In this document: positions 19,031 through 26,167 of the stretch, piece by piece
Numbering within the stretch: position 1 is the first letter of the stretch
Layout: every line of letters starts with the position of its first letter
From: Lachnospiraceae bacterium
GTDB lineage: Bacteria; Bacillota; Clostridia; Lachnospirales; Lachnospiraceae
Assembly: GCA_017623675.1 (NCBI GenBank)
Contig: JAGAOO010000062.1
Span: forward strand, 1 to 34,246
Length of the DNA: 34,246 nucleotides
Direction of reading: 5' to 3'
Notes under the pieces: model-generated
Seen by the model: only the letters and a program-made list of their open reading frames with translations
What the model was told of the DNA's origin: nothing
Database searches by the model: none
Translations under genes and position numbers: made by a program

Positions 19031-20827
19031 ATGAAATTACAAAAACATATAAAACGCATTACCGCTGTTTCTTTCAGTGTCATATTGCTCTTATCCATTT
19101 CCGGTTGTAACAGGCAGAATACCGGAACAGCCGCCAGTCCCAATGAGGACTTTGATGAGTTTTTAGAGGAATTATTCTTAGAAGAGGTAACCGATAATAC
19201 CTTAAACCTTCATTTTACATTAAAAGACCCGGAAGGATATGGCATTGAGGATATGGAGCCTACCTTTGGCGATTTAGATGATCGGGATTTTTCCAACATG
19301 GAGGAGGATTGGGAAGATTTAGAAGCATCCTTCCAAGAGTTACAATCTTATAACTATAACAAGCTGGACGAGAAACAGCAATTGACCTACGACATTCTCT
19401 ATCGTTATATGGAGCAGGAATTGTCCATCAAGGACTGCGAATATCAGGGAACCGTATTTGGGCAGGTAACCGGTGTACAGAGCAATATGCCTCTCAATAT
19501 GTCCCTATATGAATTCTACTCTGCAGAAGATGTAGAGGACTATCTGTCTCTTATGGATCAGTTAGATGATTACTTCGATTACTGTATCGAATATGAGCAG
19601 TTCCGAACCGTCGAAGGATACGGTATGGCAGACGGTGCCATCGATGACGCTGTGGAACAATGTGAGGAATTCTTAACACATCGAGAAGACAATTATCTGA
19701 TTACTACCTTTGACCACAGAATAGATGCCCTTGATGGTTTAAGCGATACCGAACGTGCCTCTTATAAAGACCAGAATCGGAATATCGTAATGAATACCGT
19801 AATACCTGCATACGAAACCATGATTGATGAATTAAATGCATTAAAGGGCAAGAGTGAAGACCGGGGCGGCATCTGTAATTATGAAGGTGGAAAAGAATAC
19901 TATGAATACATTGTTTCCCACAAAACAGGTTCTTCGAAATCCATTGAAGAAATGAAAAAGATATTAGAAGATGTTTTAGATGATGCCACCAATATGACAT
20001 ATGATGTGTATGCCAATGCACCGGATGTACTCATGGAATACTATGGCGATGAAAACTTCGTTGTAGAGGGATTATCCCAGCCGGAAAGTTTTTTAGAATA
20101 TTACAAGCAGGAAATGATTGGCGAATTCCCAACGCCACCGGCAATTACATATACCATCAGCGATATTGATCCTTCTATTGCAGACATCGTTTCTCCTGCA
20201 TTCTGCGTAACACCATGCATTGATGATTACACGCAAGGTGTTATTCAAGTGAATCGCAGCGAAGACAATGGTGGCGGAGGTGCCTTATCTGCTACCTATG
20301 CTCATGAGGGTTATCCGGGACATTTATATCAGATGACTTACTTCTTATCCACCAACCCTTATCCAATCCGCGACATGCTAAGCTTCTTAGGCTACGATGA
20401 AGGCTGGGCTATGTATGTGGAAATGCGTTCTTATAACTGGGTTACTTATGAGAACTATGATGACGAATATGTACGCGAAATGTATGTAGCCGGTGAATTG
20501 CAGAATATTGCTTTCTGCTGTCTGGCAGATATCTATGTAAATTATTACGGCTATACGGTAGAAGATCTTGCTGACTACATGAACGAGATGGGCTTTAACG
20601 GTGATGCCGCACAGGACTTATACGATATGATGGTAGAAGAACCGGGATATTATCCACAATACTTTATCGGTTATCTGGAGTTCGTTGAGCTTCGGGATTA
20701 TGCAACCGAACAATTAGGTGCAGACTTCAATGAAGAAGCTTATCACAAAGTAATTCTGGAAACCGGACCTTGTGATTTTACTACCTTGCGGGAACAGATG
20801 GATGAATATATTGATTCTGTGAAATAA
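19031..20827 (+). CDS. DUF885 family lipoprotein, probable zinc metallopeptidase
   Basis: This 598-residue protein has a lipoprotein signal: a basic N-terminus, a hydrophobic core and the lipobox SISGC with Cys26. It should be tethered outside the membrane. The DUF885 core contains ATYAHEGYPGHLYQ (His425, Glu426, His431), a zinc-binding HE-x(3)-GH type motif, and downstream LGYDEGWAMYVE with Glu457 and Glu464 as further ligand candidates. The domain architecture and length fit DUF885 proteins, which are related to M2/M32-type gluzincin folds. Peptidase activity is inferred. The mature protein is very acidic. It has its own promoter. The terminator after it is weak. Confidence 0.9.
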   Translation: MKLQKHIKRITAVSFSVILLLSISGCNRQNTGTAASPNEDFDEFLEELFLEEVTDNTLNLHFTLKDPEGYGIEDMEPTFGDLDDRDFSNMEEDWEDLEASFQELQSYNYNKLDEKQQLTYDILYRYMEQELSIKDCEYQGTVFGQVTGVQSNMPLNMSLYEFYSAEDVEDYLSLMDQLDDYFDYCIEYEQFRTVEGYGMADGAIDDAVEQCEEFLTHREDNYLITTFDHRIDALDGLSDTERASYKDQNRNIVMNTVIPAYETMIDELNALKGKSEDRGGICNYEGGKEYYEYIVSHKTGSSKSIEEMKKILEDVLDDATNMTYDVYANAPDVLMEYYGDENFVVEGLSQPESFLEYYKQEMIGEFPTPPAITYTISDIDPSIADIVSPAFCVTPCIDDYTQGVIQVNRSEDNGGGGALSATYAHEGYPGHLYQMTYFLSTNPYPIRDMLSFLGYDEGWAMYVEMRSYNWVTYENYDDEYVREMYVAGELQNIAFCCLADIYVNYYGYTVEDLADYMNEMGFNGDAAQDLYDMMVEEPGYYPQYFIGYLEFVELRDYATEQLGADFNEEAYHKVILETGPCDFTTLREQMDEYIDSVK

Positions 20828-20853
20828 TGGGATTTTAATGATGAAAGTATAAC

Positions 20854-20876
20854 AAAACAAGTTGTCGTCTTGTTTT
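20854..20876 (+). terminator. Weak hairpin after the DUF885 gene
   Basis: AAAACAAG (20854-20861) pairs with CTTGTTTT (20869-20876) around a 7-nt loop, and TCTTG follows. It is AT-rich and short, so it is only a possible terminator. Confidence 0.45.
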
Positions 20877-20911
20877 CTTGGGATAACAGAACTTCGATGT
20901 TTTATCCCTTC

Positions 20912-21898
20912 CTACCCATTATATGTACAGCTTTCCCGTTCCAGCAGGCGACACGGTAATTCCAAACGCACCCGTTCCTGATGCAGCCCGTCTTTGCGGT
21001 CCAATAACAATCGAATCGCTAAATGTACCATTTCTTTTTTCGGAATATGAATGGTTGTTAACATGGGTGTGCTCTTCTGTGACTCTGTGATATTATCGAT
21101 AGAGATTACGGATGGAACATACCCTCTTTTTTTGTTTTGTTTTAACGCCCGTAGCACACCAAGTGCGGTACAGTCATTTGCACAGAAGATAGCTGTTGGC
21201 TTCTTTTCCCCCTTCATGATTTCCTGCATGACACGAAAGCCCTCCTGTTCGGTCTGACTCGTCTGGTGGACATCACTGTAGCGAAGAGGAATTTTGTGTT
21301 TAAGCAACGTTTGATAATAGCCTATATATCTGGATTCATAGTTGCAGTCTCCAATATAAGCTATATTGCTATGTCCTAAAGAAATTAGGTATTCCACAGC
21401 TATACTGGCTGCTGCAGCACCGTTACAGATTACCTCGTCGTATTCATATTCCGTTGGATTTCTGTCAATTCCCACAATATAAGCATATCGTTTCCGCAAA
21501 ATGCTGATTACATCGGCCGGACATTTTCCAAATATCAACAACCCTGTATTCTTTTTGCGAACAATAAATGCTGATGGATTCAACTGCCTTTCCGATTGCA
21601 CATTGGCTTGTGAACGATATGGAACATTTCTCGTATTCGTTGCCTCCCGTTCTAACGCCATAATATCCGGCAGATTCAGCACCTCGCCAAGCAAGCACCC
21701 GTTTTCAATTAATTCTTCCTCTGTGTAATGAAACAGTTCCAAAAAGAAGGAATCCTTATCCATGGATTCGAATCGTGTCAAAAGAATATCAACTACAAAC
21801 GGAGTCTCTGAATCCTTCCTACCCTTCCGCAGCTCTCTGGCAGCAGAATTGGGAAGATAGTGTTCCTGTTCTGCTATTTCCCATATACGTCTGTACAA
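20912..21898 (-). pseudogene. LacI-family regulator missing its N-terminal DNA-binding domain
   Basis: About 329 residues remain. They begin inside the family's hinge region (RRIWEIAEQEHYLPNSAARE) and continue through a full periplasmic-binding-protein-like effector domain (GLLIFGKCPAD, VEYLISLGHSNIAYIGD, TAIFCANDCTALGVLRALKQ, VISIDNI) to the usual C-terminus. The helix-turn-helix that LacI proteins carry before the hinge, roughly 25-30 residues, is absent. Upstream of about 21,898 the same frame stays open only because it runs antisense through the substrate-binding-protein gene up to 22333. An in-frame ATG at 21899-21901 has no clear ribosome binding site. The gene has lost its promoter, start and DNA-binding part, so it is very probably non-functional as a repressor. 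Confidence 0.85.
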
Positions 21899-22754
21899 CA
21901 TTACCCATGCCCAGGCATTGCTGATGAAAGCAGAAGGCAGCTTGGAAACTAGCCTCGGTGATAGTGCAACCGTTACCTGGACTGCTTTTAATGCAGGCCC
22001 TGCGGAAGTGGAAGCCTTGTTTGCCGGTGACATTGATATCGGATATATCGGTCCGGTTCCGGCTATCACTGCAAATGTGAAATCCCAAGGAGATATACAG
22101 ATTCTTTCCGGTGCTACCAAGGGTGGAGCAATCCTTGTTAAACGGGAAGGTACCGACATTAACAGTGTAGAAGATTTAGATGGAAAAATTGTTGCAATTC
22201 CACAGCTTGGTAATACCCAGCATTTGTGCCTGTTAAATCTCTTAGCAGAACATGGTCTGGCTCCGACCAGTGACGGTGGTACTGTTACGGTTGCCGCTGT
22301 TGCCAATGCAGATGTATCGAACACTATGACCAATGAAGATATTGATGCTGCTTTGGTACCGGAACCTTGGGGTTCTACTCTTCTCTCACAAAATGCAGAG
22401 CTTCTTATGGATTACGATACCATTTACTACGAGGGAGACTATGATGTTGCTGTTGTAGTGGTTCGTAAAGAATTCATGGAAGAACACCCGGAGCTGGTAG
22501 AACAATTCCTGGCAGAACATGAAGCAGCAACCAAACAACTGAACGACAATCAGGCTGAATGTCTGGATATCATTAATCAGGAATTAGAGAATGCAACCGG
22601 AAAGTCCCTCGATGACGCCATTATAACAGAAGCCTTTACAAGAATTGGTGTCAGTACGGAATTAAATGAGGCATCCATCCAGCAATTCGCCGTCATAAGC
22701 AAAGAGCAGGGTTTTATTGATGAACTGCCAGCGGAGGATTTGATATGTCGTTAG
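21897..22754 (+). pseudogene. Sulfonate/nitrate/taurine-type ABC substrate-binding protein, N-terminus missing
   Basis: About 285 residues remain, starting NITHAQALLMKAEGSLE and continuing with FNAGPAEVEALFAGDIDIGY, IGPVPAI, VAIPQLGNTQHLCLLNLLAE and DAALVPEPWGS. This is typical of SsuA/TauA/NrtA-type binding proteins (NMT1/SsuA superfamily). Intact members start with a lipoprotein signal peptide and a first beta strand; about 45-60 residues including that signal are gone. Without it the protein could not be exported. The reading frame is otherwise undamaged and its end overlaps the ATPase gene by 10 bp. Translation could begin at TTG 21918 or ATG 21924, but neither has a good ribosome binding site. 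The loss shares one junction with the beheaded LacI gene. Confidence 0.85.
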
Positions 22755-23491
22755 TGCTAAAAGGAATACATAAGCAATTTGATAATAATGAAGATGCTAC
22801 TTTAAATGATATTAATCTGGAGATTGAAACCGGCGAGTTCGTATGTATCGTCGGCCCCTCCGGTTGTGGCAAAAGTACACTCCTTAATCTGGTTGCCGGT
22901 CTGGAAACGCCCACCATTGGACAGATTCTTCTGGATGGTAAACCGATTACCGGCCCGGGTTCCGACCGGACGGTGATGTTTCAGGAGCACGGATTATTTC
23001 CATGGCTGAATGTCATAGAAAATGTAAAATTCGGCATGAAGATGTCCGGTGTACCGAAGGAGGAACAGGAGCGAAAAGCCCTTCATTATCTGGAAATGGT
23101 ACATTTACTGGACTATAAGGATTATCTGATTCATCAAATCTCCGGTGGTATGCGCCAGCGAGTTGCCTTAGCCAGAGCTTTGACAATGGACTCCAAAATA
23201 CTGCTGATGGACGAACCATTTTCTGCTTTGGACAGACAGACCTCCAACCAGCTTCGGGAGGAGCTTCAACGGATTTGGATGGAAACGAAACGTACCATTT
23301 TTTTTATTACCCATAGTGTTGAAGAAGCCGTCTATCTTGCCGACCGTGTGGTGGTTCTCTCTGCAAAAACCGGGAAGGTGGCAGACATCATCCCCATTCC
23401 CTTTGACCGTCCACGTCAGGTATACGACCCGGACTTCGTAGAATATCGACATCGAATTCTGGATGAGGTCAGAAAGGAGAGCACCCTATGA
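22745..23491 (+). CDS. ABC transporter ATP-binding protein (SsuB/TauB/NrtD-like)
   Basis: This 248-residue ATPase has Walker A GPSGCGKST (37-45), the Q-loop MFQEHGLFPWL, signature SGGMRQR (133-139), Walker B ILLMDEPFSALD (152-163) and a switch histidine in ITHSVEEA. The sequence is closest to ATPases that power uptake of sulfonates, taurine or nitrate, with the family hallmark FPWLNVIENV. The ATG at 22745 lies within the last codons of the binding-protein gene, after GGAGGATTTGAT, so translation is coupled. It overlaps the permease gene by 4 bp (ATGA). With the binding protein truncated and the promoter region lost, the transporter is probably not working or poorly expressed. Confidence 0.93.
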   Translation: MSLVLKGIHKQFDNNEDATLNDINLEIETGEFVCIVGPSGCGKSTLLNLVAGLETPTIGQILLDGKPITGPGSDRTVMFQEHGLFPWLNVIENVKFGMKMSGVPKEEQERKALHYLEMVHLLDYKDYLIHQISGGMRQRVALARALTMDSKILLMDEPFSALDRQTSNQLREELQRIWMETKRTIFFITHSVEEAVYLADRVVVLSAKTGKVADIIPIPFDRPRQVYDPDFVEYRHRILDEVRKESTL

Positions 23492-24243
23492 GCATTTTTA
23501 TTTTTCTTATCCTGTTAATCTTTCTCTGGCAGGGCTTTTACTGGGTCTTTGTAGATTTGCTGGAGGTTTTTAAGCCCTATGCGGTTCCTTCTCCTTTGGG
23601 AGTAGGCGAAACCTTTATTGAACTATGTCAGGACGGAACCTTATTCGAAGCCACCGGTTATTCTCTTTTGCGAGGCATTGGAGGATATCTGATTGCAGTC
23701 ATCATTGGCGTGATTATCGGGCTTTTAATCAATCATTTTTCCTACCTGCAAAAGAATCTGAAACCGTTGATTCTGGGAATCCAGACCCTGCCAAGTGTCT
23801 GCTGGGTTCCATTTTCCATTCTCTGGTTTGGCTTATCCACTCAGGCGATATTATTCGTAGTAGTTATGGGCTCCGCTTTTAGCATTGCCATATCAGTAGA
23901 TAATGCGATTAAAAATGTGCAGCCAATCTATACGAAAGCCGCCCGGACTATGGGGGCGACCAAACGGCAGCTTTATTTTCATGTCATTTTACCTGCCAGT
24001 TTACCGGAACTAATATCCGGTCTGAAGCAAGGCTGGTCCTTTGCATGGCGGGCACTGATGGCAGGCGAAGTCATGACTACTTCCATCGGCTTGGGTCAAA
24101 CCCTGATTACCGGACGAGACCTAGCTGACATCAACCAGGTTATGCTGGTTATGATTGTCATTGTTTTTGTTGGTATCGTAATAGACAAGTGCATTTTTTC
24201 CGTTATCGAAAAACGTGTGCTTCGAAAACGCGGACTATTATGA
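23488..24243 (+). CDS. ABC transporter permease (SsuC/TauC-like)
   Basis: This 251-residue inner-membrane permease has about six spans and the binding-protein-dependent transport EAA-type loop near residues 150-170 (AARTMGATKRQLYFHVILPA, then SLPELISGL). An aromatic-rich first span (FYWVFVDLLEVFKPYAVPSP) and ITGRDLADINQVMLVMI near the end are typical of the sulfonate/taurine group. The ATG overlaps the stop of the ATPase gene by 4 bp, after an AAAGGAG. It is the last gene of the truncated ABC operon. Confidence 0.92.
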   Translation: MSIFIFLILLIFLWQGFYWVFVDLLEVFKPYAVPSPLGVGETFIELCQDGTLFEATGYSLLRGIGGYLIAVIIGVIIGLLINHFSYLQKNLKPLILGIQTLPSVCWVPFSILWFGLSTQAILFVVVMGSAFSIAISVDNAIKNVQPIYTKAARTMGATKRQLYFHVILPASLPELISGLKQGWSFAWRALMAGEVMTTSIGLGQTLITGRDLADINQVMLVMIVIVFVGIVIDKCIFSVIEKRVLRKRGLL

Positions 24244-24553: not shown

Positions 24554-26167
24554 ATGGCAGCTATTGATTTAACAAAGTATGGCATTACTGGAACTACAGA
24601 AATCGTTCACAATCCTTCCTTCGAATTATTATTTGAAGAAGAGACAAAGGCTTCTAACGAAGGCTATGAAGTAGGACAGAATACAGAATTAGATACTGTT
24701 AACGTTATGACAGGTATCTATACAGGTCGTTCTCCTAAAGATAAGTACATCGTAGTAGATAAGAATTCTGAGAACACCGTTTGGTGGGATTCAGCTGAAT
24801 ATCCAAATGACAATCATCGTATGTCAGAGGATACCTGGGCTGTTGTTAAGAACATCGCAAAGGAAGAGCTTTCTAACAAGAAGTTATTCGTTGTAGATGC
24901 ATTCTGTGGTGCCAATAAGGATACACGTATGGCAGTTCGTTTCATCATGGAGGTTGCTTGGCAGGCTCACTTTGTAAAGAACATGTTCATTATTCCTACA
25001 GAGGCTGAATTAGCTGATTTCGAGCCAGACTTCGTAGTATACAATGCTTCTAAGGCAAAGGTTGAGAACTACAAGGAATTAGGTCTTAACTCTGAGACAT
25101 GTGTAGCATTCAACATCACAAGCCGCGAGCAGGTTATCATTAATACATGGTACGGCGGAGAAATGAAGAAGGGTATGTTCTCTATGATGAACTACTACTT
25201 ACCATTAAAGGGTATCGCTTCTATGCACTGTTCAGCAAATACTGATATGGAAGGTAAGAATACAGCTATCTTCTTTGGTCTTTCAGGAACAGGTAAGACA
25301 ACCCTTTCTACAGACCCTAAGAGATTATTAATCGGTGATGATGAGCATGGTTGGGATGACAACGGTGTATTCAACTTCGAAGGCGGTTGCTACGCTAAGG
25401 TTATCGGTCTTGACAAGGAATCTGAGCCGGATATCTACAATGCTATTAAGAGAAACGCTCTGTTAGAGAACGTTACTGTTGATGCTGAAGGTAAGATTGA
25501 CTTTGATGACAAGAGTATTACAGAGAACACTCGTGTATCTTACCCAATTGATCATATTACAAACATTGCTTCTAAGGTAAATGGCGTATCTTCAGGTCCT
25601 GCTGCAAAGAACGTAATCTTCTTATCAGCAGATGCATTCGGAGTACTTCCTCCTGTATCTATCCTGACACCGGAGCAGACACAGTACTACTTCCTTTCAG
25701 GATTCACTGCTAAGCTTGCAGGTACAGAGCGTGGTATCACAGAGCCAACACCTACATTCTCAGCTTGCTTCGGTCAGGCATTCTTAGAGTTACACCCTAC
25801 AAAATACGGTGAAGAGCTTGTTAAGAGAATGGAAAAGAGCGGTGCCAAGGCATATCTTGTAAACACAGGCTGGAATGGTACCGGTAAGCGTATCACTATT
25901 AAGGATACACGTGGTATCATCGATGCAATCTTAAGCGGTGCTATCAACGAAGCTCCAACAAAGAAGATTCCTATGTTCAACTTCGAAGTACCAACAGAGC
26001 TTCCGGGTGTAGATCCTACAATCCTTGATCCTCGTGATACTTACGCAGATGCTTCTGAGTGGGAAGCTAAGGCTAAGGATCTTGCTGAGAGATTTACAAA
26101 GAACTTCAAGAAGTATGAAACAAATGAAGCTGGTAAGGCTTTAGTTTCTGCCGGTCCTCAGTTATAA
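24554..26167 (+). CDS. pckA: Phosphoenolpyruvate carboxykinase (ATP)
   Basis: PckA interconverts oxaloacetate plus ATP with PEP, CO2 and ADP. In many anaerobic Clostridia it runs toward oxaloacetate. The 537 residues show TGRSPKDKY (57-65), [10 protein letters not shown] (201-210), the kinase-1a P-loop [11 protein letters not shown] (242-252, Lys248), kinase-2 GDDEHGWDD (261-269) and [10 protein letters not shown]. Length and motifs match the ATP-dependent family. Codon use is even and rich in GGT, AAG and GAA, unlike the neighbouring ABC genes, which suggests high expression. It has its own promoter and a strong terminator, so it is monocistronic. Confidence 0.97.

Follow-up and report, generated by a model that had tools for sequence, protein, structure and literature searches.

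Divergent pairs of a LacI-family regulator and the genes next to it are a known arrangement. In the available text of a survey of LacI-family regulators (PMC4052901), 72% of the regulators are given as autoregulated, and local regulators are found as divergent pairs with central-CG palindromes between the genes, features that are also seen in the relatives of the locus described here. Terms that start with 'sulf' or 'taurine' are absent from the main text of that survey. In contrast to such local regulators, the copy analysed here has lost its helix-turn-helix and all sites. The gene that faces it belongs to an importer of the SsuABC/TauABC type, which it resembles in that the binding protein passes the TIGR01728 model and that ATPase and permease follow in order, and from which it differs in having a binding protein without signal peptide or lipobox. 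The third point of reference is the small spontaneous deletion known from bacteria, which in the available text of a Salmonella study (PMC3411829) involves, as here, a sub-kilobase loss and a short sequence common to the junction. From its verification work, in which 12 of 15 tested deletions were confirmed, that study arrived at a cut-off of at least 8 bp for deletions, against 3–4 bp common at the junction in the present case.

The window, which is the whole stretch of 34,246 nucleotides that was analysed, is contig C75 of a Lachnospiraceae draft genome (G000; 84 contigs, 2.81 Mb, 93.8% complete, 3.2% contamination). We found no description of the locus in the literature consulted. We think it likely that both the regulator gene and the binding-protein gene were truncated by a single real deletion in the sequenced lineage or population. 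The features on which this reading is built are the following:

20854..20876, no strand assigned: hairpin, possible terminator, between the convergent 3′ ends of a DUF885 gene and the LacI remnant
20912..21898, minus strand: remnant of a LacI-family regulator with 328 codons and a stop, which corresponds to the LacI protein of the relative G003 from residue 33 onward and lacks residues 1–32
20912..22333, minus strand: spurious 473-codon ORF, in which the LacI remnant is extended by an open frame on the antisense strand of the binding-protein gene
21895..21898, no strand assigned: likely deletion junction, where the homologies of both sides overlap at CAA (21896–21898), possibly ACAA (21895–21898)
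21895..22754, plus strand: remnant of a substrate-binding protein (SsuA family) without residues 1–39 (signal peptide and lipobox)
21899..21901, minus strand: ATG, a possible but unsupported candidate for a new start of the LacI remnant
22745..23491, plus strand: ABC transporter ATPase, intact, 248 aa, the same as in the relatives G003, G004 and G006
23488..24243, plus strand: permease of the ABC transporter, intact and 251 aa long (252 aa in G003, G004 and G006)

On the regulator side, LacI homology of the 473-codon frame begins only at its residue 146 (base 21898), and the alignment with the intact LacI of G003 opens at residue 33 of the latter. The profile of the LacI helix-turn-helix (PF00356) was detected neither in the window protein at E≤1 nor in the trimmed frame at E≤0.01, and it was found in both relatives tested (G003, E 4.1e-10; L048, E 1.3e-11). 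The C-terminal periplasmic-binding-like effector domain is present (PF13377, E 1.8e-30, 106.7 bits against a cut-off of 26.5), and the trimmed frame also matches Peripla_BP_3 (E 7.1e-31). What has gone we take to be helices 1 and 2, including the recognition helix; the third helix and the hinge would be kept, and the remnant should not bind its operators. The deletion would have placed the ATG at 21899..21901 in frame before the remnant. When 299 sampled genomes of the family were searched with the LacI of G003 (E≤1e-50), 28 gave a match; that of the window opens at residue 33 and most others at residue 1 or 2. Ten further matches open at residues 139–150 but lie inside frames of 336–367 codons and are therefore apparently local alignments of full-length proteins, and the one in G048 covers residues 227–358 in a 135-codon frame whose first part is on another contig. 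In three of the matches (L073, L092 and L095, from G248, G277 and G158) one or two stop codons lie within the matched stretch, as either decay of the copy or reading beyond its natural end might produce.

On the other side of the junction, the homology of the binding protein starts only at residue 40 of the 326 residues of the G003 protein. A stop immediately 5′ of 21861 bounds the frame, and the first ATG, GTG or TTG in it is a TTG at 21918, from which 278 codons can be read (21918–22754, plus strand). A leader and a lipobox were seen by eye in the binding proteins of G003, G004 and G006 and are absent in the window. The beheaded protein still passes the TIGR01728 (SsuA_fam) model with E 3e-61 and 207.2 bits against a cut-off of 163.5, covering positions 7–278 of 290 of the profile. 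In the same 299 genomes, searched with the G003 binding protein at E≤1e-60, 11 matches were obtained, and the window holds the sole beheaded copy among them: its match alone opens at query residue 34, residues 34–39 not being true homology. Since the other 10 (the query's own genome, G003, included) open at query residues 1–21, the truncation cannot be attributed to chance.

The substrate of the transporter is probably sulfonate-like, as far as family membership can tell; the equivalog models for taurine and for SaoX/SaoA/SaoP allow no closer assignment, since the binding protein does not reach their cut-offs. In two distant relatives (L056:1042-3800 and L057:1105-3879) the transporter, with no adjacent LacI gene, comes directly after sulfate-activation genes. 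In L056 profile matches, and in L057 resemblance, identify these as CysD and a CysN/CysC fusion, neighbours that are in keeping with a role in sulfur metabolism. The genome of the window also encodes two distant paralogous binding proteins (23 and 27% identity) that are candidates for replacing the function.

How does the locus look when it is intact? DNA of the junction region was matched in four of eight same-genus genomes, the window's own included (G000, G003, G004 and G006). G003 carries the whole pair on one contig: a LacI gene of 361 codons with its helix-turn-helix start, 238 bp of intergenic DNA and a divergent binding-protein gene of 326 codons with a lipobox-like LTGCG, followed by the ATPase and then the permease. 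In G004, the helix-turn-helix start, the intergenic DNA and the binding-protein start are on one contig and the body of the LacI gene is on another. In G006, the nearest relative, the binding-protein start is intact in DNA 89% identical to that of the window; its contig begins within the intergenic DNA and, of its LacI, only the C-terminal part was found, on another contig. A scan of the named genomes yielded 16 loci with the binding protein (shared sequence identifies L044 with G003, L043 with G004 and L042 with G006). An N-terminal leader could be recognised by eye on the binding-protein ORF in all 16, and a complete divergent LacI with its helix-turn-helix start in 11 (L044–L051 and L053–L055). 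Of the others, L043 has its helix-turn-helix start where the contig stops and L042 is truncated; among ORFs of at least 150 codons, no adjacent LacI was seen in L052, L056 or L057.

By comparison with G003, the window lacks 96 + 238 + 117 = 451 bp, corresponding to the LacI start, the intergenic region and the binding-protein start. DNA homology to the binding-protein gene of G006 starts at 21895, and the flanks, as deduced from the sequence of relatives, have 3–4 bp in common in register; the longest word common to the 80-bp neighbourhoods of both G003 endpoints measures 8 bp and lies out of register. Albertini et al. (1982) reportedly dealt with short homologies at large deletions, in lacI of E. 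coli. We also considered that the missing DNA had been relocated within the genome, and it was found neither as DNA nor as protein. The best hit of the missing G003 piece elsewhere in the window's genome had an E of 0.054, and that of G006 returned the junction alone below E 0.3, in a type of search that could miss strongly diverged intergenic sequence; at the protein level, the helix-turn-helix region of G003 retrieved the remnant (residues 33–58) and two other LacI-like proteins with 41 and 40% identity.

These results bear out most of what a first-pass annotation of the sequence had proposed. It had described a LacI without helix-turn-helix and a binding protein without signal peptide, in agreement with the absence of residues 1–32 and 1–39, respectively, relative to G003, and with the presence of PF00356 in G003 and L048. 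It had placed the breaks at about 21893–21899, which is right to within a few bases (21898 for LacI, 21895 for the DNA of G006), and the two divergent genes do meet without intergenic DNA, as it had stated, since the homologies from both flanks come together at 21895–21898. Its proposal that one deletion took both starts, both promoters and the likely operators also fits, for all of them, the promoters presumably, are within the DNA missing relative to intact relatives. The comparison with relatives and sister loci that it had suggested found both starts present in the intact ones, and brought to light no relative that shares these lengths and the junction and no family naturally lacking these N-termini, the two observations that it had named as contrary evidence. 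That the repressor and the uptake system were disabled together, as it had suggested, is what a single deletion would be expected to cause.

Among the elements contained in the missing DNA are two operator-like palindromes of the G003 intergenic region. The sequence TGNAAACGTTWKCA occurs at 2 places in the whole genome of G003, both in this intergenic region, and at 0 places in G000. With up to 3 mismatches, TGAAAACGTTTTCA has exactly two sites in each of the 11 intergenic regions examined, which are those of L044–L051, L053, L054 and G004 (L009), L055 being a complete pair that was left out. Dinucleotide shuffles contained two or more sites in at most 1 of 300 cases per region, in a test that was not blind, the motif having been chosen after seeing G003. 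The two sites are 77–119 bp apart (87–89 bp in seven of the eleven regions; 77, 78, 113 and 119 bp in the rest), compared with peaks at 13, 22 and 32 bp in the available text of the LacI survey (PMC4052901), and this wide spacing makes DNA looping possible. Nine further loci were scanned over their whole length at up to 2 mismatches, giving two sites in L060, L061, L066 and L068, one in L067 and none in L062–L065. The two-site layout is thus not universal, as only four of these nine have it; L061 repeats the sequence of L048 and is not independent. Judging from their place, palindromy and conservation, the palindromes would be the regulator's own operators. Near the junction of the window there are none, and with 3 mismatches allowed the window as a whole contains 3 matches, which equals the chance expectation (2.99). 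Because the whole intergenic region is missing, both promoters are presumably gone as well. A crude sigma-70 scan of 20700–23000 gave no promoter-like match near the junction and a single one at 22824–22851, inside the ATPase gene (shuffle mean, 4.7). The hairpin at 20854..20876, which compared with shuffles is no better on the plus strand (z −0.16) and better on the minus strand (z −2.47), might limit read-through after the DUF885 gene.

The sequence of events that we favour starts with one deletion, equal to 451 bp of G003, that would have fused LacI codon 33 to the facing SsuA-type lipoprotein gene near its codon 40, the join being made at the 3–4 bases common to both ends. Comparison with relatives shows that the missing DNA held the helix-turn-helix, the intergenic region with its two operator-like sites, and the signal peptide and lipobox. 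This would have four main consequences: i) both promoters would be gone, ii) the regulator would no longer bind DNA, iii) the binding protein would be neither exported nor lipidated and iv) ATPase and permease would be left without a promoter of their own, so that uptake of the probably sulfonate-like substrate would be off. The event is most likely a recent loss-of-function deletion of the ordinary kind. None of the three transporter genes has an in-frame stop, and dN/dS between the window and G006 is 0.044 for the binding protein, 0.072 for the ATPase and 0.019 for the permease, while between the intact loci of G003 and G004 the values are 0.058, 0.038 and 0.021, respectively, the ATPase being somewhat higher in the former comparison. 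Ratios could not be calculated where synonymous distances were saturated, which includes every window comparison for LacI. Amino-acid changes specific to the window and to G006 number 7 and 4 in the binding protein, 7 and 9 in the ATPase, 2 and 2 in the permease and 4 and 5 in the C-terminal part of LacI. Progressive decay is ruled against by the lack of in-frame stops and the ordinary dN/dS, and for the same reason, the remaining genes still looking intact and being under ordinary purifying selection, the deletion, if true, should be recent. The locus would illustrate cleanly that a single small deletion can disable a regulator together with the uptake operon that it faces, leaving long open frames behind. 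A further outcome of the comparison is a divergent LacI/SsuA-type locus that, in several relatives, carries two palindromes at a wide spacing.

Could the junction have been made by the assembly instead? A chimeric or minority-strain read path might have dropped about 450 bp while the main population is intact. This is a draft genome, and in two of the three sister assemblies (G006 and G004) contigs end inside or beside the same regulator/intergenic stretch (L008:1, L014:1, L010:3619 and L009:1), which suggests that the region may be hard to assemble or variable among strains; a junction of 3–4 bp would also suit a chimeric read, and transporter genes under normal constraint are what an intact population would have. 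However, the contig runs on for about 21.9 kb on one side and 12.3 kb on the other, the missing piece has not been left over on another contig and, as far as G003 shows, no repeat of k-mer length joins the flanks. The first-pass annotation had offered assembly collapse as its alternative. Collapse at a repeat is unlikely, since only 3–4 bp are common at the junction and no in-register repeat surrounds the G003 endpoints; assembly errors of other types we regard as improbable, though worth keeping in mind. The junction gave 0 matches in viral_contigs, which is uninformative with regard to an independent sighting.

The remaining explanations accept the junction and deny that it is a simple loss. 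The truncated products might have acquired a new function, either as a LacI effector domain without helix-turn-helix and a binding protein confined to the cytoplasm, or as the fusion of 473 aa. Both frames are open, an ATG brought in by the deletion stands in frame before the LacI remnant, and the window-specific changes listed above show no marked excess in the binding protein or the C-terminal part of LacI. Against this, nothing promoter-like was matched near the junction, the searches turned up no relative that shares this architecture, and residues 1–145 of the fusion lie on the antisense strand of a conserved gene, an equally long run being open in 3 of 13 relatives; we consider a new function very improbable. 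A variant of comparably slight probability takes the junction for a common polymorphism under selection in this lineage, with repressor and importer lost in one step and the sensor without helix-turn-helix kept as a cytosolic ligand binder translated from the new ATG. It is scarcely credible that the arrangement is the natural organisation of a subfamily without these N-termini, given the leader on all 16 named relatives, the helix-turn-helix start on the 11 complete adjacent LacI proteins (both by eye) and the early opening of the other 10 matches in the binding-protein survey. A real and recent deletion remains the likely reading.

Frames left over by such a deletion may be accepted by automated annotation, and the 473-codon ORF is a case in point. 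Its residues 1–145 are antisense to codons of the binding-protein gene, and in the window this antisense frame is open for 171 codons from the junction. In 3 of 13 relatives the same frame has 170 or 171 open codons, and in the other ten it runs for 2–48 codons from the junction. A run of 171 codons was reached by a fraction of 0.0205 of 2000 shuffles of synonymous codons and of 0.0005 of 2000 free shuffles of codon order. Because it is full-length in three relatives and interrupted near the junction in the others, we read the open run as non-coding, a property of the binding-protein gene sequence rather than a gene. The ORF had been called false from the outset, in accordance with its antisense part, and it had been put down to chance, which does not hold as the whole explanation in view of the three relatives with an equally long run.

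The slot 3′ of the transporter is occupied by an ATP-type PEP carboxykinase in the window (24554–26167) and in L008:2732-4420, L007:6930-8618 and L009:2940-4628. The enzyme comes in two very different forms, one of 537 aa (window and G006) and one of 562 aa (G003 and G004), with PF01293 scores of 667.9 and 60.5 bits, respectively. At E≤1e-20, none of the eight same-genus genomes has both forms together: the 562-aa form is found in five of them and the other in G000, G006 and G002, in the last as a 220-residue match. A piece of 83 residues on a different contig of the window's genome (G000:C7:5813-6061) shares 71% identity with the C-terminus of the PEP carboxykinase of the window.
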